DNA of 64,000 nt from Flavobacteriales bacterium (GTDB taxonomy: Bacteria; Bacteroidota; Bacteroidia; Flavobacteriales_F; PHOS-HE28), in assembly GCA_019912395.1 (NCBI GenBank), contig JAIOIH010000042.1, forward strand, positions 124,001 to 188,000. Reading direction: 5' to 3'. The notes under the pieces were generated by a model, which saw only the letters and a program-made list of their open reading frames with translations, was not told where the DNA came from and did not search any database. Shown one piece after another: positions 13,224 to 50,373 of the stretch; the stretch's first letter is position 1, and each line of letters begins with the position of its first letter. The translations under genes were made by a program, and so were the position numbers.

Positions 13224-14291
13224 ATGGAACTGAAGAATTCTCCGGATTGGAAGGCGATCCGCTCCGAATATCCGGGACTTGGGCACGGCACGTACCTGGA
13301 CACCTCCTCCTTGGGGTTGATCGCAGGTTCCACGGAGGAAGCCGCCCAAGCCGAGCAGAAGCGCTTGATGGTCGAAGGTTCTTCACGCTATGTTCATTGG
13401 CATGTGCACGGGCGTGCCGAGGTTGGAAGAACGGTAGCGAAACACGTCGGCGGCAGTGATGCGGGCATTGTGCTGTTACAGAGCTTCACCGTCGGGATGT
13501 CCCGCTTGGCGCCGATGCTGAAGCACCGCAGGAAAGTGCTGTTGGTGGGCGGTGATTATCCCACGTTGCACGGACCGTTCAGGTGGAACGATTTTGATGT
13601 GGTGATGGTGCAGCCGAACGTTGATGGCACGATCCCGCTGGACCTACTTGCTGCCGCCATGGAACGGGAGCACCCGCTGCTCGTGGCCATCAGCCATGTG
13701 CAATGGACCACCGGCCATACCATCGACCTCCGCGCGCTCTCCGAGCTCTGCCATGCGCACGGTGCATGGTCCGTGGTGGACGCCACGCAGTCCTGGTGCA
13801 GTGCTCCCATCGACCTTCGCAACGCACCCGTGGACATCCTGGGTACCAGCGGTTACAAATGGCCCTTGGCGGGCATGGGGAACGGCTTCTTCCACCTGTC
13901 AATAACCGTTCGCGAGGAGCTTTCGGAGCGCAACGGTTATGATGCGATCGGTGCACTTTCCGAGGGTCATCTCGATCCCCTTGCACTGGCACGCTTGGGT
14001 GATGCGGTACAACGGGCCTCGGCGATGGGGTCGGAGGCCATCGCGGAACGCGTGCAGCAGCTCTTCGACCTGGCCGTGCAGCGCCTTGATAAGGCAGGCG
14101 TGCATATCCTCAACGGAAGGGATCCGGTAACGCGTGCGGGCATCCTCATGATCGAAGGTGATGAGAATCGCCTGGCCAAAATGCGGGAGGCCGGAGTTCA
14201 AGCACAATTGCGTGGCGCGGGCATCCGCATCGGAATCCACTTCTATAATGATGAGGAGGATATTGAAAAGCTGGTGAAGGCGCTGGGATGA
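13224..14291 (+). CDS. Class V aminotransferase-fold PLP enzyme
   Basis: 355 residues of the class V aminotransferase/cysteine desulfurase fold. The PLP lysine is in GTSGYKWPLAGMG near residue 212, VVDATQSW near 187 holds the PLP-ring aspartate, and SHVQWTTGHTIDL resembles SufS/NifS-type enzymes. There is no conserved desulfurase cysteine loop, so it may be a lyase, isomerase or aminotransferase. A broken copy of its C-terminal 28 codons lies at 21641-21727 beside egtD. As EgtE, the C-S lyase of ergothioneine synthesis, belongs to this fold, an ergothioneine role is possible but speculative. The gene stands alone between the OsmC fusion and the T9SS operon, with which it converges. Confidence 0.8.
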   Translation: MELKNSPDWKAIRSEYPGLGHGTYLDTSSLGLIAGSTEEAAQAEQKRLMVEGSSRYVHWHVHGRAEVGRTVAKHVGGSDAGIVLLQSFTVGMSRLAPMLKHRRKVLLVGGDYPTLHGPFRWNDFDVVMVQPNVDGTIPLDLLAAAMEREHPLLVAISHVQWTTGHTIDLRALSELCHAHGAWSVVDATQSWCSAPIDLRNAPVDILGTSGYKWPLAGMGNGFFHLSITVREELSERNGYDAIGALSEGHLDPLALARLGDAVQRASAMGSEAIAERVQQLFDLAVQRLDKAGVHILNGRDPVTRAGILMIEGDENRLAKMREAGVQAQLRGAGIRIGIHFYNDEEDIEKLVKALG

Positions 14292-14337
14292 ACCCGGAAA
14301 CGGATCACCCCTCAACCTGCAGGGAGCTTGTGCGCGG

Positions 14338-15933
14338 CTATTGCTTCACAAAGCGACCGATGACGGTGCCGGCACCGGTGCGCAACTCCAGGCAGTACAC
14401 GCCATTGGCCCAACCCTCCACGGCGATCTGCAAGGATCGCATGCCGGGTTCAACCGGCCTTTGCAGCACGATGCGCCCGGTGATATCCAGTACCTCCAGC
14501 GTGGCTCGTTCCTGCATATAGGTGGGGAGCACCACATTTACCCGGTCCGTAGCGGGTGAGGGATACGTCGAAAGTTGACCGGCACCAAGCAGTTCACCCA
14601 CGCCCGCATCCAGGTCGCTGAAAAGTTTGACCAACCAAATATCTTGGATACCCGGCGAATGCAGACCGCTGACATCACCATCAGTAGAGTACGTTTTCCC
14701 GGAGGTGAAAATTTCACCGGCGGGGTTACGGGCCACGGCATAGGCATCGTCACCGCCTGAGCCGCCAAGACATTTCTGCCAAAGCAGGTCCAAGTCCGCG
14801 TCCACCATGAGCACCCAGGCGTCCAGGCCGTTGCCACCGTGGTTGCCGCTCACATCACCATCGTTGGACTTCGTGTAACCAGCGACCACAAAGCGGCCTT
14901 GGCCGGCGACCGCTCCTGACCAAGCTTGGTCCTCGCCGGTACCGCCGAAGCAGCGCTGTTGCTGGATCGTTCCCGAACTATCCAGCAGCACCAACCAAAC
15001 ATCATAATTTCCGTGGTTCCCGCTGACATCCCCGTCGTTCGAGGCAGTGGAACCCACGACCAGGATGCTGCCGTCCGGGTTCACCAGCAAGTCCTTCGCG
15101 CTATCATCCATGTTCGGTCCGCCGCTGCCGCCCATGCGGCGGTTCCACAGCAAGTTACCTTCGGTATCGATCTTGATCACCCACACTTGGCCCGTACTGC
15201 CGGTGGTGACTTGCCCGTCCGTGGAGGCGCTCGTACCTGCGATCACATGGTCACCTTCAGGCGTGGCCTTTATTGCCCAAGCTTCATCTTGACCGGACCC
15301 CCCATAACAGTGGAGCCATTCAACAACACCGCCGCCATCCAACTTGGCAGCGAAGTAATCGGATTGGCCGTGGTTCTCCTGCCAGATGCCTTCGTTGGCG
15401 AAGGTTCCCCCTACGGCCAAGTAGCCCCCGTCCGCAGTTTCCACAGCCTGATCGATATCCGCGCCCGAACCGTCCAGATCACCGGCCAGACAGGTCTGCC
15501 ACTGCACGTTGCCAATTGAGTCCACTTTAAGTGCCCAAGCATGACTGAAAAATCCATTGCATTCAATGTCCCCGTCCGCGGACGTTGTGGAACCCAGCAT
15601 CAGGAAGCCCCCGTCCGAGGTGGCCAGCAGGCGGGTTGCCACATCGGCATCGGAGCCACCGTAACAGCGTTGCCACTGTATCTGGCCCATGGCATCGAGT
15701 TTGACCAACCAAAAATCCGGGGGGCCATGTTGGCCGGAGACATCACCATCGTAGGACGCTGTGCTCCCCAATACGGCACAACCTCCATCAGCGGTGGCTT
15801 GTACGCCCCAGCTTTCCTCATACAGGCTTCCTCCGAGGCAACGCTGCCACTCAATGGCAGGAGCTTGGGCCTGGAGCATGGTACTTGTGGCCCCGTATAG
15901 GAGGCCGATGAATAAAACACGCAAGTTGACCAT
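14338..15933 (-). CDS. T9SS-secreted repeat protein, type A sorting domain (paralogue 1)
   Basis: 531 residues with an N-terminal signal peptide ending near QAQAP. The body has about seven repeats of 50-60 residues with the recurring words WQRCLGGS / DGGFLMLGST / DGDVSGNHG / DFWLVKLD, probably beta-propeller-like blades. The C-terminal 75 residues (TYPSPATDRVNV, LEVLDITGRIVLQRPVEPG, GVYCLELRTGAG) form a T9SS type A sorting domain, so the protein should be exported to the surface or released. It follows the very similar 15938-17527 gene after four bases and ends the operon. Function beyond display or adhesion cannot be told. Confidence 0.88.
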   Translation of the reverse strand: MVNLRVLFIGLLYGATSTMLQAQAPAIEWQRCLGGSLYEESWGVQATADGGCAVLGSTASYDGDVSGQHGPPDFWLVKLDAMGQIQWQRCYGGSDADVATRLLATSDGGFLMLGSTTSADGDIECNGFFSHAWALKVDSIGNVQWQTCLAGDLDGSGADIDQAVETADGGYLAVGGTFANEGIWQENHGQSDYFAAKLDGGGVVEWLHCYGGSGQDEAWAIKATPEGDHVIAGTSASTDGQVTTGSTGQVWVIKIDTEGNLLWNRRMGGSGGPNMDDSAKDLLVNPDGSILVVGSTASNDGDVSGNHGNYDVWLVLLDSSGTIQQQRCFGGTGEDQAWSGAVAGQGRFVVAGYTKSNDGDVSGNHGGNGLDAWVLMVDADLDLLWQKCLGGSGGDDAYAVARNPAGEIFTSGKTYSTDGDVSGLHSPGIQDIWLVKLFSDLDAGVGELLGAGQLSTYPSPATDRVNVVLPTYMQERATLEVLDITGRIVLQRPVEPGMRSLQIAVEGWANGVYCLELRTGAGTVIGRFVKQ

Positions 15934-15937
15934 AGCT

Positions 15938-17527
15938 CTATCGTTTTATGAAACGTGCGCTGCGCACTTCGGCCCCTGCGTTCAGCCGCAGGCAGTATAT
16001 GCCATCGGCCCATGCTGCAACAGGTATCCGCATATCTCGAATTCCAGGCTCAACTGGCCTGTGCATGATCCTTCGACCCGTGACGTCAAACGCCTCCAGG
16101 GTTGTGGCAGCAGGCAACACTTCCGGCAGCTTGATGAAGACCTGGTCGCTGGCCGGGGAGGGATGCACGGACAATTCCATATCCCCATCCCGTAGTTCAT
16201 TCATGCCCACCTCCATATCACTGCCGAGCTTAGCCACCCAGATGTCATCATTGCCGTGGTAGCCGCTCACGTCGCCATCATTGGAGTTCGTATGTCCCGA
16301 AATGATGGTCTCACCGTATGAGGTGCGGGCCATTGCGAAAGCCGCATCGGCTCCTGAACCTCCAAGGCATTTTTGCCAAAGCAGGTCCAGGTTGGCGTCC
16401 ACCATCAACACCCATGCATCCTCGCCGCCGTGGTTACCGCTCACGTCGCCATCATCGGAATCGGTATACCCAGCGATCACATAGCGGCCCTGGCCAGTAG
16501 CTGCACCTCCCCATGCGTTATCCCATCCCGAGCCGCCAAAGCAACGCTGCTGCAGGATCGTTCCGCTGCTGTCCAACACCACCAGCCACACATCATAGCT
16601 TCCATGATTCCCGCTGATATCCCCGTCGTTCGCACCGACCGTGCCGACCATCAGGATGGAACCGTCCGGGTTCACCACCAGGTCGCGCACCTCTTGGCCC
16701 AGGTCCGGCCCATTGCTGCCCCCCATGCGGCGGTTCCACAGCAGGTTCCCCTCTGGATCGATCTTGATCACCCAGATCTGACCAATGGTGCCGGTGGTGA
16801 TCTGGCCGTCCGTGGAACCGGTGATCCCTGCGACCACAAAATTGCCGTCCGGGGTTGCCCGAACAGTGCTGGCAACATCCGATCCAGAACCACCATAGCA
16901 ATGCAGCCATTGCACCTCTCCCGACCCGTCCAGTTTCACAACGAAGAAGTCCCCTTGCCCATGGTTCTCATGCCAGACCCCTGCGTTGGCGGAGGATCCC
17001 CCTACGACCAAGTAACCACCATCCGCTGTTTCCACGGCACAGCCCACCCCCAGGTTTGAACCGCCCGGATCGCCTATCAGGCAAGTCTGCCATTGCAGAG
17101 CACCGTCTAGATCCACTTTCAATGCCCAAGCACGCAGTTGTGGAGGACCGCCGCAGGTCACATCGCCATCCAAGGAACCTGTAGTGCCCAGCAGCAGAAA
17201 ACCTCCGTCGGAGGTGGCCAGTAGGCTATTGGCCGTTTCATTTCCCGTTCCACCGTAACAGCGCTGCCACTGGAGCGAACCTGTGTCATCAAGCTTTGCC
17301 AACCAGAAATCCCTGCCGCCATGATTCTCGGATACATCCCCATCGTTGGATTCAGTTCTGCCCAAGACGGCATATCCACCATCCTGAGCAGGTTGAATGC
17401 CCCAGCTAATTTCATATTGGCTTCCCCCTAGGCAGCGCTGCCATTCCAAGCCGGGGGCTTGGGCTTGAAGCAAAGTACTTGAGGCCCCATACAGGAAGCT
17501 GAAGAATGAAATGCGCAAGCTGACCAT
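15938..17527 (-). CDS. T9SS-secreted repeat protein, type A sorting domain (paralogue 2)
   Basis: 529 residues, a tandem duplicate of the next gene (14338-15933): same length, same signal peptide region, the same series of WQRCYGG / DGGYLVVGGS / DGDVSGNHG repeats and the same sorting domain (VHPSPASDQVFIKLP, FDVTGRRIMHRPVEPG). Many stretches are identical, including LDSSGTI, VNPDGSIL and LLWNRRMGG, while loops and the C-terminus have diverged. It lies four bases after the subtilase stop and four bases before paralogue 1, so the three are certainly cotranscribed. The repeats lack catalytic motifs; a structural or binding role at the cell surface is likely. Confidence 0.88.
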   Translation of the reverse strand: MVSLRISFFSFLYGASSTLLQAQAPGLEWQRCLGGSQYEISWGIQPAQDGGYAVLGRTESNDGDVSENHGGRDFWLAKLDDTGSLQWQRCYGGTGNETANSLLATSDGGFLLLGTTGSLDGDVTCGGPPQLRAWALKVDLDGALQWQTCLIGDPGGSNLGVGCAVETADGGYLVVGGSSANAGVWHENHGQGDFFVVKLDGSGEVQWLHCYGGSGSDVASTVRATPDGNFVVAGITGSTDGQITTGTIGQIWVIKIDPEGNLLWNRRMGGSNGPDLGQEVRDLVVNPDGSILMVGTVGANDGDISGNHGSYDVWLVVLDSSGTILQQRCFGGSGWDNAWGGAATGQGRYVIAGYTDSDDGDVSGNHGGEDAWVLMVDANLDLLWQKCLGGSGADAAFAMARTSYGETIISGHTNSNDGDVSGYHGNDDIWVAKLGSDMEVGMNELRDGDMELSVHPSPASDQVFIKLPEVLPAATTLEAFDVTGRRIMHRPVEPGIRDMRIPVAAWADGIYCLRLNAGAEVRSARFIKR

Positions 17528-17531
17528 GGCC

Positions 17532-20500
17532 TCAATGTTTCACGAAGCGGGTACTGCGTATGCTGCTACCTTGGTTCAGTCGGAGGCAGTATACGCCATC
17601 AGCCCAGCCTTCCACGGCGATCTGCAAGGTTTGCATGCCTGAGTTCACCTTCCTGTGGAGCACGATGCGTCCGGTGATATCCAGCACGTCCAGGGTGGTA
17701 TTGGGTGGAAGCCCTCCGGGGAGACGGATGTTGACAAAGTCGCTGGCCGGGGAGGGATACACGGAAAAATCCGAAGGAGTGGACACCTCCTCCACGGAAA
17801 CTCCGGTCTCCGGTCCCAGCAGATGGACGCTGTAAGCCGTCATAAGGTCTTGAGGCGGTGCGGGGATCCACTGGTTCACCGGGTTCCCGTTCGCATCCGC
17901 CATCACATACCAACAATTGGTGGTGGCGGTCACGTTCACCGTTGCTGTGGTTGGATCGATGTTGTAGATGTAGTTGGCATCGTATCGTCCATCCACGTTC
18001 GGATTGTTGGAAATGCCGAGCGTGGAACTTTCACGGTTCCATACATCCAACACGGTGTAGTCGGGGCCGAAGGTGTTGGAATAGGAGAACTGCACTTCCG
18101 TGCGGGCCGCCGTGTAGTCTCCGGCGGGCAGGTCCCATGAACCGCTCCAGGCATTGACCCAACTATTGATGTGGATCGTCTCACTGGGGAATGTGGTGGG
18201 CACTGGATGCACAGACGTGGAATGGAAAACCCAATAGGGTGATGCCACTTGCCGCACAGCCTCCCCGGCGTTCAGCCTGCCCCAGCCATTGGGGTCATCA
18301 TAGGTGCCGGGGCCGTTCAGGTCATCCGTGGCCGTGGATTCCATGATGTGCTCCACATCTTCCGGTGCCAGGTCGTTAGCGGCACCGCTCAGCACGTTGT
18401 GTTCGCTCATCATCAGGGCCGCCACCCCGGCCGCGTGGGGCGCCGCCGCAGAAGTTCCCTGGAAGCAGTCATAGTAGGCGGGCAAACCCGGTTGACATAA
18501 GGGGAAGTTGGTAGGATGATGGCCCACTGTGGAAGCAATTATCTGCGTTGCACCGGGCGCGACCAGGTCCATGTCATTGCCGTATTGCGTGTAGAAAGGC
18601 CCGTTCGCGAAAGTCATTGAGAGGCCATCGGTCCCACTGGCCCCGATGCTCAAGATACCGTTTTCGTCCAAGTAGGTACCCCCGTAGCAACTGGGGAAAG
18701 TGACAGCGTAGGGGCCGGGGTCCCCGGAGTTCCCGCGCGCCGCCACAACCATGCACTGGTTGTGGTACGCGTTCACCACCGCCTGGATGAGGGCGGGGGA
18801 AAATGCTTCGGGCCTGGGCCCAGCGCCCCAACTGAGGTTGAGGATATTGCAACCCGGTATCCAGTCAAAACCGACTCCATCGGTGGAGGCATCCACAATG
18901 GCCGGTGCGATATCATCCAATTGCATGTAGACATAGCCGTCCACGATGCCAGCCGAATACAGCGAACAGCCCGTGTTGGGCGCACCCGTTCCGCCTGCAA
19001 TGCCCGCAATGCCGATGCCATTGTTCCGAATGGCACCCACAATTCCCGCACAGGCGGTTCCGTGTTCGCTAAAAGGATGGAACTCTTGGTACTGATATTG
19101 CCATCCGTTCCAAACATAGTCGTACCCACCGGCAACGTGGTCGCCAAGATCTTCCACAGCTTCATTGTAGGCACCATCCCTATTGATGCCCTCGACCATG
19201 TCGTCCACGATGCCGACCTTCACTTCGGGAATTCCCGTTTGAATGTCCCAAGCGGGGTCCACATTGATGTCTGCATTGGGATAAGAGGCTGTGGGGACCA
19301 AGCTCGGTTGGCGGTGCAGCAAGGGATCGTTCGGAATGTCATAGGGCTGGTAAATGTTGTTCACCTGAGCGTAGGTGATCTCCTGGTTCAGGGTATTTAA
19401 GCTGTCGATGGCGGCAAGGAGATCGGTGCCTTCGGGCAGGCCGATCTTCAGTACCCGCCAGAATTCCGGCATGGGCACCTCCTCGCCCAAGCGGGAAATG
19501 GAAATACTGTCCGCCGTGGTCATCCCGAAGAAGACCTTGTACACCGGCACCTTGCCGCCGGAGGAAATATTGAGCTTATGGGCGACGACATCCGCCGTTG
19601 CCGGGTCCAGGGCCTTGTCCAAGGTGCTGAACTGGATTTCCTTCTTGTCCACCCACTCAGTGTTGACCACAGGCTTCCTGAAGCTGACGATCAACTGCCG
19701 GTCCATGCAGATCGGCGTGCCGCTGGAATCCACCACTGCACTGTCCTTCACGGTGGTATACCGGTATTTCACCATGGAATAGGTCTTTGTGGGGCCTTCT
19801 CCGGTGATGCCGCTCACATAGGCCTCCTTGCCAACGGCGATCAGGCCAAGGGCCTTGTCATCACCGTTCAGCCCGTCATAGTACTTGTACCATTCCTGCT
19901 TGCCGTCGGCCGCATATTTTACCGTGAGGAAATCATTGGTTTCCCCGTTGAACACGGTGCCTACCACCAAGACCCCACCGTCCTGGGTTACGGCCAGCTT
20001 TTCGGCTTCTGCCCGGTATTCCGGTTCCTTGGGCTTGAATTCACGGGTCCACAAGGTGTTTCCCTGCGCATCATACTTGACGGTCATGAACAGGGATCCG
20101 CCTTCCGCCAAGTCGCTGTAGCCGGCCACATAGGCCTGCCCTTCCGGGTCCACGCCGATGGCCTTGCCCACATCCGCCCTGTTCGCATCACCATCGTATG
20201 TCCGGGCCCAGTCCAACGTAAAGCCGCCCGTTAGCTTCACGGTCTGCATATCCCTGCCGTCATCCTCACCACTGAACCCGGTGAGGAAGAAATGGCCGTC
20301 GATATCCCTGGTGAACGCCAATGCGCTGTTGATGCTGACGCCGGGAACGGAGACGCGTTGTGCGTCCGTCTGTCCCCCGTTGATCTTGTTGTAGCCCACT
20401 GTGGCATATTCCCAAATGCCCGGTGTGGCCGAGGAGGCCCCGCTAACGACCGGGTCGTTGTTCGCGTTGAGTTCCAATCCCACGGCGATGTCGATGGATC

Positions 20501-21107
20501 CGCTGTGATCATAATTGCTGTGCCACAGCAAATTGCCTGAGGCATCGAATTTGAGCAGCACGTAATCCACATTGTTGAAGGTGGAATAGGTGATGCCGGC
20601 CACGTAGATATTGCCAGCCGGGTCCAGTTTGATGCTGGTGGGGGCGTCGATCAGGTTCGATACCCCGTCCCATGTGCTATGCCAAACGAGATCGCCCTCC
20701 TCATCATACTTGAGCACGACGATGTCCTGCATGCCGTTCACCGAGGTGGTCGCTGCCGCGATGAAAGCATTCCCGTAATTGTCCGTGGCCACGGCTGCAC
20801 CGTAATCTGGTCCGTGCGCCTCGCCATCGAAGGTTCGTTCCCACATCAGCCCCCCGTCCCGGTCATATTTATTGATGAGCACATCGGGATTCCCCGGCTC
20901 GGTCATGGTGTTACCGGCCATGATCACGTTGCCTTGGAAATCGAAGACGCTGGCACTCCAATTGAGCGTATCCGGTAGCCCGATGGTTTCCGACCATTCC
21001 TTGTTCACGTAGGATTTCTGTGCCATTCCTGCAAATCCCAAGATCAGTGCAATGTAGCACAGCACGAGCCTCAACATCCGCGTAAGACGAGTATCGGAGT
21101 ATTTCAT
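17532..21107 (-). CDS. T9SS-secreted subtilisin-like (S8) serine peptidase
   Basis: 1191 residues from the ATG at 21107, chosen because MKYSDTRLTRMLRLVLCYIA starts a good signal peptide. The first 450 residues are beta-propeller/SBBP-like repeats (DNYGNAFIAAATTS, DPEGQAYVAGYSD). The S8 domain follows with Asp635 (GIVDDM), His682 (EHGTACAG) and Ser886 (GTSAAAPHAAG), a complete triad. The end (VYPSPASDFVNIRLPGG, LDVLDITGRIVLHRKV) is a T9SS type A sorting domain closely matching those of the two downstream genes. It heads a three-gene operon and may process itself or its co-secreted repeat proteins. The XRE gene runs divergently 131 bp away. Confidence 0.9.
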   Translation of the reverse strand: MKYSDTRLTRMLRLVLCYIALILGFAGMAQKSYVNKEWSETIGLPDTLNWSASVFDFQGNVIMAGNTMTEPGNPDVLINKYDRDGGLMWERTFDGEAHGPDYGAAVATDNYGNAFIAAATTSVNGMQDIVVLKYDEEGDLVWHSTWDGVSNLIDAPTSIKLDPAGNIYVAGITYSTFNNVDYVLLKFDASGNLLWHSNYDHSGSIDIAVGLELNANNDPVVSGASSATPGIWEYATVGYNKINGGQTDAQRVSVPGVSINSALAFTRDIDGHFFLTGFSGEDDGRDMQTVKLTGGFTLDWARTYDGDANRADVGKAIGVDPEGQAYVAGYSDLAEGGSLFMTVKYDAQGNTLWTREFKPKEPEYRAEAEKLAVTQDGGVLVVGTVFNGETNDFLTVKYAADGKQEWYKYYDGLNGDDKALGLIAVGKEAYVSGITGEGPTKTYSMVKYRYTTVKDSAVVDSSGTPICMDRQLIVSFRKPVVNTEWVDKKEIQFSTLDKALDPATADVVAHKLNISSGGKVPVYKVFFGMTTADSISISRLGEEVPMPEFWRVLKIGLPEGTDLLAAIDSLNTLNQEITYAQVNNIYQPYDIPNDPLLHRQPSLVPTASYPNADINVDPAWDIQTGIPEVKVGIVDDMVEGINRDGAYNEAVEDLGDHVAGGYDYVWNGWQYQYQEFHPFSEHGTACAGIVGAIRNNGIGIAGIAGGTGAPNTGCSLYSAGIVDGYVYMQLDDIAPAIVDASTDGVGFDWIPGCNILNLSWGAGPRPEAFSPALIQAVVNAYHNQCMVVAARGNSGDPGPYAVTFPSCYGGTYLDENGILSIGASGTDGLSMTFANGPFYTQYGNDMDLVAPGATQIIASTVGHHPTNFPLCQPGLPAYYDCFQGTSAAAPHAAGVAALMMSEHNVLSGAANDLAPEDVEHIMESTATDDLNGPGTYDDPNGWGRLNAGEAVRQVASPYWVFHSTSVHPVPTTFPSETIHINSWVNAWSGSWDLPAGDYTAARTEVQFSYSNTFGPDYTVLDVWNRESSTLGISNNPNVDGRYDANYIYNIDPTTATVNVTATTNCWYVMADANGNPVNQWIPAPPQDLMTAYSVHLLGPETGVSVEEVSTPSDFSVYPSPASDFVNIRLPGGLPPNTTLDVLDITGRIVLHRKVNSGMQTLQIAVEGWADGVYCLRLNQGSSIRSTRFVKH

Positions 21108-21181
21108 GGGGTAAAGGGGTTGGTGTACGACGAAAATAGCCGCGACCGACATGTGGATGAGGGGCAAAAGGCACGTTATCG

Positions 21182-21209
21182 GGGATGCCGATGACCATAT
21201 CGGCATCCC
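21182..21209. promoter_or_regulatory. 11-bp inverted repeat between the subtilase and XRE genes
   Basis: gggatgccgat (21182-21192) and atcggcatccc (21199-21209) are perfect arms with a six-base spacer. Placed in the divergent region next to an XRE-type gene and 29 bp before its ATG, it is a good candidate operator for that regulator. A TACCTTTC box (21213-21220) overlaps the downstream flank. Confidence 0.5.
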
Positions 21210-21238
21210 TGATACCTTTCGGCCCTATTCCAGTACAG

Positions 21239-21640
21239 ATGAACAAAAAGCAAATTGCGATGCGGATCCGCCAACTGCGGGAGGAACGGAACTTGACCCA
21301 GAAGGAAGTGGCCGACGTGCTTGGGATCCATCAGCCTGCCTATTGCGCGAAGGAGAGCGGCGACACCTCATTCACTGCGGTTGATCTGGACAAATTGGCC
21401 GTTTTCTATAACCTGAGCTTGGACGAATTGCTGCGTGCGGACCAGCCCGTGCTGAACATGTACGAGAACAAGGTGGCGAACGGCTACAACGTGATCCATA
21501 CACAGAACCAGCAAGGCATCAGCGCCGAGCTGTTCAACCGGCTTTGTGACATCATGGAAAACAATGCGATCGTACTCAAGGACATCGCCGCACAACATGC
21601 GAAGTTGATCGAGCTGTTGGCGCGGGCCGGCAAGAGTTAG
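21239..21640 (+). CDS. XRE-family transcriptional regulator
   Basis: 133 residues from ATG 21239. Residues 8-62 form a Cro/CI-type helix-turn-helix: RIRQLREERNLTQKEVADVL followed by IHQPAYCAKESGDTSFTAVDL. The C-terminal part (FNRLCDIMENNAIVLKDIA, AKLIELLARAG) is a helical, probably dimerising, segment. It is divergent from the three-gene T9SS operon and probably controls it or itself through the inverted repeat upstream. The reading frame stops directly against a remnant of an aminotransferase gene, which suggests that the DNA from here leftwards was joined to old egt-linked sequence at this point. Confidence 0.88.
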   Translation: MNKKQIAMRIRQLREERNLTQKEVADVLGIHQPAYCAKESGDTSFTAVDLDKLAVFYNLSLDELLRADQPVLNMYENKVANGYNVIHTQNQQGISAELFNRLCDIMENNAIVLKDIAAQHAKLIELLARAGKS

Positions 21641-21727
21641 TTGCGTGGCGCGGGCATCCGCATCGGGGTCCACTTCTACAACAATGAGACGGATGTGGAA
21701 CGGTTGGTGGAGGGGGTCCGGAACTAG
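21641..21727 (+). pseudogene. Remnant: C-terminal 28 codons of a class V aminotransferase-like gene
   Basis: Directly after the XRE stop, 28 codons plus TAG read LRGAGIRIGVHFYNNETDVE and on to RLVEGVRN. This aligns with the last 27 codons of the gene at 13224-14291 (LRGAGIRIGIHFYNDEEDIE...). The first 26 bases are identical (compare 14208-14233). There is no start codon and no upstream part, so it is a truncated gene end. Divergence at other codons shows it comes from a paralogue or an old duplication, not a recent copy. Confidence 0.8.
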
Positions 21728-21753
21728 GCCGAAACACCATGGAGAGATAAGCC

Positions 21754-22743
21754 CTAGCGCTCCGGATCGGTCCGCGCGAAGACCACGTCGGTGAAGTAGC
21801 CCTTGCCGTCCGTGAATTGTGCCGTGATACGAAGCCCGGAATGGGTGGCGAGGTCCTCGATCATCGCATTGTCATACTTCTGGCTGATCTCCGTGTGCAG
21901 TGCTTCCCAAGCGTTGAAATGAACGGGGGCTTCTGCACCCGGAATGTGAACGTCCTGATCACAAGTGCTCACGAGGTAGCTGAGCGCTCGGCCGCTCGAG
22001 GGGTCGTACACGGGCGTGTGGATGAACTGCTCCACGTTGAAGTCCGCACCGAGTTCACGATTGATCCGGTGCAACAGATTGAGGTTGAACTCGCGTGTGT
22101 GGCCCTCGCTATCGTTGTAGGCGCGCAGAATGGTCGCAGGGTCCTTTTTCCGGTCGAACCCCACGAGGAACCGGTCGTTCGGACCCAAGTACCTCGCCAC
22201 GCCTTTCAGCAGGTCGATGGCGCGCGCGCGGTCCAAGTTGCCAATGTTGGAGCCGAGGAACAGCACGGCCTTCGCTTCCGAGGGGTCGGAGAAACCGCGC
22301 TCGATGGCCTCAAAATACTCGCCCTGTTCCGCTTGGTAGCGAAGTGTTGGAAGTTCCTTCTTCAACGCTTGTCCAAGCTGATCCAGCACATGCCTCGAAA
22401 TATCGATCGGGTGATACACGGGATCACGGCCCTGCTCCAGCGCACGCCTCAGTACATGCTTGGTCTTCGCACCATCGCCCGCCCCCAGCTCGAAGAGGGA
22501 AAAGCGTTGATGCCCGTTGAACAAGGCCGCCAGCACCGCATCCGTTTGGTCCCGTAGGATCTCGTCCTCGGCCCGCGTGACGTAATAGTCCTCCGAGGCC
22601 ATGATCCGCTGGAAGAGCTTGTCGCCCGCCGCATCGTAGAAGTAGCGCGAGCTGATCTTCTTCGGCGTACCGGCAAGCCCGGCGAGGACGTGCGCCCGGA
22701 ATTCCTTCGTCGCCGCGGATATGGGTTCGAGGATGTCCTTCAT
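21754..22743 (-). CDS. egtD: EgtD, L-histidine N-alpha-methyltransferase
   Basis: 329 residues from the ATG at 22743; earlier in-frame starts lie in a tctgatct repeat and overlap egtB. SAM-dependent methyltransferase motif FELGAGDGAKTKHVL is near residue 81, followed by FLGSNIGNL and DRFLVGFDRKKD, all typical of EgtD (DUF2260). It makes hercynine by trimethylating histidine, the first step of ergothioneine synthesis in the cytoplasm. It follows egtB by 19 bases on the same strand. Confidence 0.93.
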   Translation of the reverse strand: MKDILEPISAATKEFRAHVLAGLAGTPKKISSRYFYDAAGDKLFQRIMASEDYYVTRAEDEILRDQTDAVLAALFNGHQRFSLFELGAGDGAKTKHVLRRALEQGRDPVYHPIDISRHVLDQLGQALKKELPTLRYQAEQGEYFEAIERGFSDPSEAKAVLFLGSNIGNLDRARAIDLLKGVARYLGPNDRFLVGFDRKKDPATILRAYNDSEGHTREFNLNLLHRINRELGADFNVEQFIHTPVYDPSSGRALSYLVSTCDQDVHIPGAEAPVHFNAWEALHTEISQKYDNAMIEDLATHSGLRITAQFTDGKGYFTDVVFARTDPER

Positions 22744-22776
22744 CTTCTGATCTTCTGATCTTCTAATTTTCTGATC
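22744..22776. repeat. tctgatct tandem words at the egtB-egtD junction
   Basis: cttctgatcttctgatcttc plus aattttctgatcc fills the 19-base gap and encodes the last residues of EgtB (GSEN). It belongs to the same short-word family as 5876-5910 and 7959-7976. Confidence 0.55.
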
Positions 22777-24010
22777 CATCCCGCGCAAGCCGGATCCCGG
22801 TGTATTGCCAGCGCAGGTTTGGCTGGAAAAAATTGCGATACGAGGCGCGCGAATGGTTCGGCGCCGTGGCCACCGAGGCTCCGCGCAGCACCATCTGGTT
22901 CACCATGAACTTACCGTTGTATTCGCCCAGGGCACCGGGAACCCGTTTGTATCCCGGATACGGCAGGTATGCACTGTTCGTCCACTCCCAGCGCTGGCCC
23001 CACTGGAACCGCGTGTTCGCCACCTCCCATTCCGCTTCCGTCGGCAGGCGCTTCCCGCTCCATTCCGCGAAGGCGAACGCCTCGTAGAAGGAGATGTGGC
23101 ACAAGGGCATCTTCGGCTCCACCACTGCCAAGCCCTTCAGTGTGTAGTAGTGCCACGCGCCATCCACTTTGTGCCAGTACATCGGGGCTTGTACGTGGTT
23201 GTCCTGCACCCACTGCCAGCCATCGCTGTGCCAATGGTTGAAGTCCGCGTAGCCCCCATTGTCCATGAACGCCAGGAATTCACCGTTGGTCACCAAGCGG
23301 TCGCTGATCGCGAAGTCCTCCACATACACTTGGTGCCGTGCATGCTCATTGTCGAAGCTGAAGCCTTCACCCTCGGATCCGATGGAGTACAAGCCGCCGT
23401 TGATGGGGATGAAGTCGCCCTTGGTCTTCTCCGCGCCGCTTTCGGTGAAGTCGTCGTATACGGGGAACAGCGGATTATTGCCGAGGATATACTTCAGGTC
23501 CGTCATCAGTAATTCCTGGTGCTGCTCCTCGTGATTGAGTCCGAGCTCCAGGATCCGCAGTTGTTCCTCGCTTGCATTTCCGCTGGCCAGGAACGCGTCC
23601 ATCGCCTTGTCCACATGTGCGCGATACGCATGCACTTCCTCCAACGTGGGGCGGGTCATGTTGCCACGGTCGGCGCGCAGCACGCGCTTGCCCACGGTCT
23701 CGTAATAGCTGTTGAACAGGTAGGCCATGTCCGCATTGAACAGCTTGTATTCCTCGCTGTTCTTCAGAATGAACTGTTCAAAGAACCACGTGGTGTGACC
23801 AAGGTGCCACTTGGGCGGTGATACGTCCACGATCGGCTGCACCACATGGTCCTCCACTTTCAGCGGTGCGCAGATGGCCACGGTGCGGGCCCGCACGGCG
23901 TGAAAGCGTCGGGCCGGATCCGTGGCTGTTTGCGCTATTCCCTCCGACGTGCTGGTACCGGGGAGGTTCGCCACCGCTGAGGGGCTTTCATCCTTCTTTG
24001 TGTTCTGCAT
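22763..24010 (-). CDS. egtB: EgtB, ergothioneine sulfoxide synthase
   Basis: 415 residues from ATG 24010 (MQNTKKDES); an ATG at 24025 is also possible. The N-terminal DinB-like domain carries the iron ligands: HLGHTTWFFEQF and HEEQHQELLMTDLKYIL. The C-terminal formylglycine-synthase-like domain is seen as PINGGLYSIGSEGEGFSFDNE, EAFAFAEWSGKRLPTEAEWE and LRGASVATAPNHSRASYRNFF. It is an iron(II)- and oxygen-dependent enzyme that joins a thiol (cysteine or gamma-glutamyl-cysteine) to hercynine. No EgtA or EgtC is nearby, so cysteine as thiol donor is plausible; the lyase step would need an EgtE-like enzyme such as the protein at 13224. Confidence 0.94.
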   Translation of the reverse strand: MQNTKKDESPSAVANLPGTSTSEGIAQTATDPARRFHAVRARTVAICAPLKVEDHVVQPIVDVSPPKWHLGHTTWFFEQFILKNSEEYKLFNADMAYLFNSYYETVGKRVLRADRGNMTRPTLEEVHAYRAHVDKAMDAFLASGNASEEQLRILELGLNHEEQHQELLMTDLKYILGNNPLFPVYDDFTESGAEKTKGDFIPINGGLYSIGSEGEGFSFDNEHARHQVYVEDFAISDRLVTNGEFLAFMDNGGYADFNHWHSDGWQWVQDNHVQAPMYWHKVDGAWHYYTLKGLAVVEPKMPLCHISFYEAFAFAEWSGKRLPTEAEWEVANTRFQWGQRWEWTNSAYLPYPGYKRVPGALGEYNGKFMVNQMVLRGASVATAPNHSRASYRNFFQPNLRWQYTGIRLARDGSEN

Positions 24011-24124
24011 AATTGAATGACGCATAGCGCGCTTGTATTGTTCAACTGCCAAGCCTGTTGTCGCTCCATCGCCACGGTCCTGACGCTATCTTGGCTGCGC
24101 GTTCACCCTTGCAAGCTGGACCAC

Positions 24125-50260: not shown

Positions 50261-50295
50261 AAAAAGGGCCGTTCCATTCTTGGAACAGCCCTTTT
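50261..50295 (-). terminator. Hairpin terminator downstream of tRNA-Ala
   Basis: On the minus strand aaaagggctgttcca pairs with tggaacggcccttttt around AGAA, followed by Ts. It starts four bases after the tRNA 3' end. The stem has one mismatch and could also end the HD-PPK1 transcript on the plus strand. Confidence 0.8.
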
Positions 50296-50298
50296 GGG

Positions 50299-50373
<75 letters not shown>

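Follow-up and report, generated by a model that had tools for sequence, protein, structure and literature searches.

A T9SS cargo operon with an XRE regulator gene between an aminotransferase gene and egtD in a Flavobacteriales genome: a probable insertion beside a duplicated gene end

In the lineage of the Flavobacteriales bacterium studied here, an XRE-family regulator gene and a T9SS cargo operon have probably been inserted between a class V aminotransferase-fold gene (AT) and egtD, leaving a second copy of the 3′ end of AT on the far side of the inserted DNA. The DNA was analysed as a window of 64,000 nucleotides (GenBank assembly GCA_019912395.1, contig JAIOIH010000042.1, positions 124,001 to 188,000), and all coordinates given below are those of the window. 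Direct observation covers the second gene end (here called the remnant), the lack of the operon at this site in related genomes, and its occurrence elsewhere in two relatives; that the event was an insertion, rather than a loss in all of the other genomes, is what we infer. Insertion scars of this type have been described before, and the case adds another example. A gene fragment next to the genes of a pathway may be mistaken for a lost partner; here, comparison with a single relative that has the site empty is enough to replace a lost egtE by the scar of an insertion.

The second copy of the gene end

The intact AT gene is situated at 13224-14291 on the forward strand. The remnant, at 21641-21727 on the same strand, comprises 28 codons and a stop codon, and 26 codons align with the end of the AT gene. 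It directly abuts the stop codon of the XRE gene (21239-21640), without a gap and with a shared reading frame. The bases upstream of 21641 are those of the XRE gene, which is apparently full-length (its homologue in genome G017 aligned from residue 1 to position 129 of 133), and no AT-like sequence is left there. The local alignment of the remnant with AT opens with 26 identical bases, the first of them at 21641, and has a score of 81. Random 87-base stretches taken from both strands of the window and scored against the AT gene (3878 scores) had a mean of 19.4 and a maximum of 34, confirming that the match is far above chance. A repeat finder reported the same pair as direct repeat family D8 (14208-14280, within the intact AT, and 21641-21713, both on the forward strand; 82% over 73 bases; 7433 bases apart), and a six-frame search of the genome itself found the remnant as a match to AT (query residues 316-353, E 4.6e-7). 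With up to three mismatches allowed, the 26-mer has exactly two occurrences in the 4.13-Mb genome. The remnant is most likely without any role.

The same 26 bases are unchanged in the AT gene of genome G022, which among the genomes searched is the nearest relative of the window genome both by EgtD (80% identity) and by AT (72%). The idea that the 26-mer is a repeat peculiar to the window was rejected, as it is present in G022 too; and since the AT gene of G022 carries it, the identity of these bases between the remnant and AT is not special to that pair. They are, moreover, the longest identical run between the AT genes of the window and G022, which are 71% identical over the gene (the next longest run is 18). 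In an alignment of 78 bases, 16 positions differ between AT and the remnant, 11 between AT and G022, and 14 between the remnant and G022, the first 26 bases being identical in all three. The differences between the remnant and AT are therefore 0 in 26 bases followed by 16 in 52 (Fisher p 0.0008), and those between AT and G022 are likewise 0 in 26 followed by 11 in 52. Among intact AT orthologs (105 pairs), variation is the same in the two parts of the tail (0.263 and 0.259). A recent duplicate that decayed evenly was rejected as a full account of the uneven distribution between the remnant and AT, yet AT and G022 have a similar one. Because the two tails differ at 16 of 78 bases, they do not suggest a fresh duplication, and the remnant was probably not copied recently from the AT gene in its present form.

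Which of the two tails is the native one was considered from single positions and from trees. Reading by eye, there are three positions at which AT and G022 have a base that is rare among the other orthologs and the remnant has the common one, and two positions with the opposite pattern. Trees of the tail alone favour a placement of the remnant outside AT plus G022 (lnL better by 2.9 with 78 bases and by 4.2 with 52 bases); the remnant is too short to be placed firmly, and with p-AU of 0.053 to 0.23 for the two alternative placements, none of the three is rejected at 5%. In a tree of the full gene (15 AT genes), the placement of the remnant as sister to the AT of the window was 2.8 units from the best and was not rejected (p-AU 0.196). 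Taken from these few bases, there is a weak lean towards the intact tail being native and the remnant having arrived with incoming DNA.

The site in relatives

The remnant is convergent with egtD (21754-22788, reverse strand; 267.1 bits to TIGR03438, cut-off 290.9), with 26 bases between their ends, and egtD is followed by egtB (22763-24052, reverse strand; 527.4 bits to TIGR03440, cut-off 360). The gene order in the window is radical-SAM, CMD, sigma factor, hydrolase/OsmC, AT (forward), two cargo genes (reverse), subtilase (reverse), XRE (forward), remnant (forward), egtD (reverse), egtB (reverse). From translations of the open reading frames read by eye, we take the flanking genes here and in relatives to be those for radical SAM, CMD, sigma factor, hydrolase/OsmC, rhodanese, purF, sufC/sufD, DUF427, and rsmI-, TetR- and TolC-like proteins.

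The genomes searched were 58 picked as relatives and then 45 of the genus (including the window genome). Six of the 45 have egtD, the window genome among them. In G022 (locus L069), egtD and AT are tail-to-tail without the T9SS block, and the sole open reading frame between them is small and DUF427-like. The gene order of G022 matches that of the window on both sides, running from purF to egtB-egtD and then through AT, hydrolase/OsmC, sigma factor and CMD to radical SAM. Protein identities to G022 are 92% (radical SAM) and 91% (hydrolase/OsmC) on the left flank, and 86% (EgtB), 85% (rhodanese-like) and 92% (purF product) on the right, with EgtD itself at 80%. By these comparisons, both flanks of the window look vertically inherited relative to G022. 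AT is also convergent with egtD in G004, G017 and G011, with 73 to 455 bases between the ends of the matches, and in these three genomes sufC and sufD adjoin the other side of AT. In the fifth other genome with egtD (G030), the contig stops just past the DUF427-like open reading frame. Thus, in all four of the informative egtD relatives (G022, G004, G017 and G011), AT is convergent with egtD and the T9SS block is absent between them.

The presence of AT beside egtD in four of four relatives, together with the conserved order of the flanks in G022, identifies the intact AT at 13224-14291 as the gene that belongs beside egtD. Judged from gene order, AT is not lost: the unit of XRE, subtilase and cargo genes now separates it from egtD. 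The initial annotation had recognised the match of the 28 codons after the XRE stop to the end of AT, the disappearance of everything upstream of it and the breakpoint that it marks, all of which hold, the XRE/T9SS block being absent at this site in relatives; its further reading of the remnant as the trace of a lost aminotransferase gene does not, as the gene has been separated rather than lost. It had also proposed that related genomes be compared for an intact aminotransferase gene next to egtD and for 14338-21640, and had named as contrary evidence relatives with the remnant and the operon but never an intact gene. The relatives have intact AT beside egtD, and neither the remnant nor the operon there.

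The DUF427-like open reading frame of G022 (L069, 10267-10548) is situated between egtD and AT, and similar sequence is present in G011 and G030; its counterpart in the window is the gap at 21728-21753. In the window genome, a search for DUF427 had no matches (it was run without a positive control, so this proves little). Since the G022 open reading frame is unmatched in the window genome, at least one further change may have happened at the site, which may thus have seen more than one event. In G017, the egtB match (L133, G017:C6:13161-14351) contains one in-frame TGA and may be broken or misread. G004 has egtD and AT, and an egtB match is absent at E <= 1e-40.

The probably inserted block

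The probably inserted block (14292-21640), which is absent between AT and egtD in the four relatives, comprises a T9SS cargo operon and a divergent XRE gene. Two operon genes on the reverse strand encode T9SS cargo proteins: one of 531 amino acids with beta-propeller-like repeats (14338-15933; Por_Secre_tail and SBBP-type matches; 61% to the copy in G031) and a paralogous one of 529 amino acids (15938-17527; 65% to the copy in G017). Beside them, on the same strand, is the gene for a subtilase (S8) with beta-propeller repeats and a T9SS sorting tail (17532-21107; 74% to G031, 68% to G017). The XRE-family regulator gene (PF01381, 2.8e-12) is on the forward strand, divergent from the operon. The cargo genes (14338-17527) are tandem paralogs, seen at the DNA level as repeats that are 67–76% identical at a spacing of about 1.6 kb.

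Close homologues of the subtilase (at least 68%) were found in only two of the 44 other genus genomes, G031 and G017, and G022 is without one. More remote copies or pieces (39–49%) are present in G019, G001, G058, G066 (two), G010, G024 and G065, and G017 has a second piece; some S8 match exists in all 45 genomes, mostly via the common T9SS tail or repeats. The arrangement of an XRE gene, a divergent S8 gene and two cargo genes is shared by the window genome, G017 and G031, each of which has it at a different chromosomal place. In G017 the unit is on contig C70 (L087), beside a ribbon-helix-helix-like open reading frame and an rsmI-like gene, with AT and egtD of that genome on C6; in G031 it is on contig C241 (L092), beside TetR- and TolC-like genes. 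G019 and G008 have a related XRE gene divergent from a gene for a T9SS-type protein. The occurrence of the unit at differing sites would fit transfer or relocation, and the location of an XRE-plus-T9SS cargo operon at different places within one Flavobacteriales genus bears on how operons for secreted proteins spread.

The block and its surroundings were searched for features of mobile elements. Profile searches identified no integrase among the four genes of the block, and all seven matches to the tyrosine recombinase family (PF00589) in the genome are away from the contig of the window (C11). There are no inverted repeats of at least 18 within 14150-21800, so transposon ends were rejected, as was integration at a tRNA (the window has a single one, at 50295-50373). 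The GC content in 1-kb windows of 8000-30000 is 0.545–0.612, without a sharp contrast between the block and its flanks. A scan of 14200-21800 for promoters and terminators gave 7 and 8 sites, compared with shuffle means of 3.5 and 5.8.

Possible routes of insertion and alternative explanations

In the lineage of the window, the XRE regulator gene and divergent T9SS operon (about 7.35 kb) would have come to lie between AT and its convergent neighbour egtD, an event that would leave AT whole at the left and a 28-codon second 3′ end of AT at the right; the left junction would lie somewhere within 14292-14337. The gene-end anatomy is consistent with two possible routes: either an element integrated site-specifically at a core within the gene end, or incoming DNA bearing its own AT tail recombined homologously within the 3′ end of AT. 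The route by homologous recombination is mildly favoured, because of the lack of an integrase and because of the tail tree.

The closest known anatomy appears to be the duplication of the end of icd in Escherichia coli by e14, a prophage with a (putative) integrase gene, which has the 165-bp end icdC across the element with 12 changes (PMC11148124). In both cases the host gene is whole on one side of the insert, its 3′ end is repeated with an open frame across the insert, and the two ends differ by substitutions. Unlike e14, the present block yielded no recombinase (the tyrosine type was searched for), its repeat, of about 78 bp, has 16 changes, and its cargo is a T9SS operon. Compared feature by feature, the intact gene and partial 3′ copy are present here as flanking direct repeats, and the empty site is present in G022, G004, G017 and G011, though with the DUF427-like open reading frame in the gap of G022; an integrase encoded by the element was found neither with PF00589 nor among the block genes. 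The weak lean given above, with the intact tail native and the remnant incoming, runs opposite to the e14 case. Protein-coding genes also have insertions at their ends, with a repeat at each junction, in the case of genomic islands in trmE, dusA or yicC; those islands carry integrase and mobilisation functions (PMC8409611), none of which were seen in this block.

Site-specific integration of the e14 type would make the 26 bases an att core, the element would have supplied a new in-frame 3′ end of AT, and the remnant would be the original chromosomal end. In agreement with this reading, the 26 bases are the same at either side of the block and the sequences after them have diverged, the frame of AT is preserved, G022 has the 26-mer at its empty site, and the layout is shared with e14/icd/icdC (PMC11148124). 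We nevertheless consider it unlikely: the recombinase searches speak against it, the operons of G017 and G031 have no AT tail next to the XRE gene, and the tree that it predicts, with the remnant grouped with the G022 tail, is favoured least or equal least (p-AU 0.058 to 0.07), so that the remnant as native 3′ end is weakly disfavoured by the short-tail trees and not rejected. The remnant could also descend from an old tandem duplication of AT, in which a second AT beside egtD was destroyed, except for its tail, by the arrival of the operon; of the alternatives, this comes closest to the interpretation in the initial annotation. The frame of the remnant has stayed open, with residues similar to those of functional AT tails, and the tree permits an old split; a second AT match (E <= 1e-6) is found in none of the 44 other genus genomes and the four informative egtD genomes each have a single AT at this place, making such a duplication quite improbable.

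An artefact has even less to recommend it. The genome is a draft assembly (87 contigs) and the junction falls at a 26-base exact repeat, at which the egtD side or the operon might have been misjoined. Both flanks, however, are similarly close to G022 (85–92% outside egtD and AT) with its gene order kept on either side, and a misjoin at the repeat would require that the true XRE gene also precedes that 26-mer, so a chimera is very improbable. Returning to insertion by recombination, no donor was found in which the operon is joined to the same AT tail. A bolder extension, which we regard as doubtful, is that the 3′ end of AT is the integration target of a mobile unit that would move T9SS cargo and XRE regulator between genomes of the genus without encoding its own integrase, and that would keep the target intact by bringing an AT tail of its own.

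The aminotransferase gene and EgtE

Class V is the fold class of EgtE. EgtE and AT are both PLP enzymes of the same general fold class, and AT neighbours egtB-egtD. The initial annotation had suggested from the shared fold that the supposedly lost gene may have been an egtE-like partner of egtBD. This identity is unsupported for the intact AT, which scores 35.7 bits with the EgtE model TIGR04343, failing the cut-off of 400 by a wide margin. AT is, furthermore, mostly found without egtD: a full-length AT is present in 16 of the 45 genus genomes (another two carry a piece of AT at a contig end), and of these 16, five have egtD and 11 are without it. EgtE is the PLP-dependent C–S lyase of ergothioneine synthesis (PMC10805701). 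Where AT and egt genes occur together, AT might be a partner of the latter.

AT matches Aminotran_5 (PF00266, 6.3e-18) plus many class V families, and a search of solved structures with AT gave chiefly cysteine desulfurases. A scan of the named genomes with AT gave seven loci, the best on the G022 contig and the other six distant (24–31%). In G006, G031 and G002, the sequence downstream of AT on the opposite strand reads, by eye, as the end of purF; AT is thus part of this chromosomal neighbourhood whether the egt genes are present or absent. On the other side of AT in G022, an open reading frame (L069, 11885-12676) which we presume by eye to be flavodoxin- or NADPH-oxidoreductase-like is situated between AT and the hydrolase gene, where the window has 115 bases.
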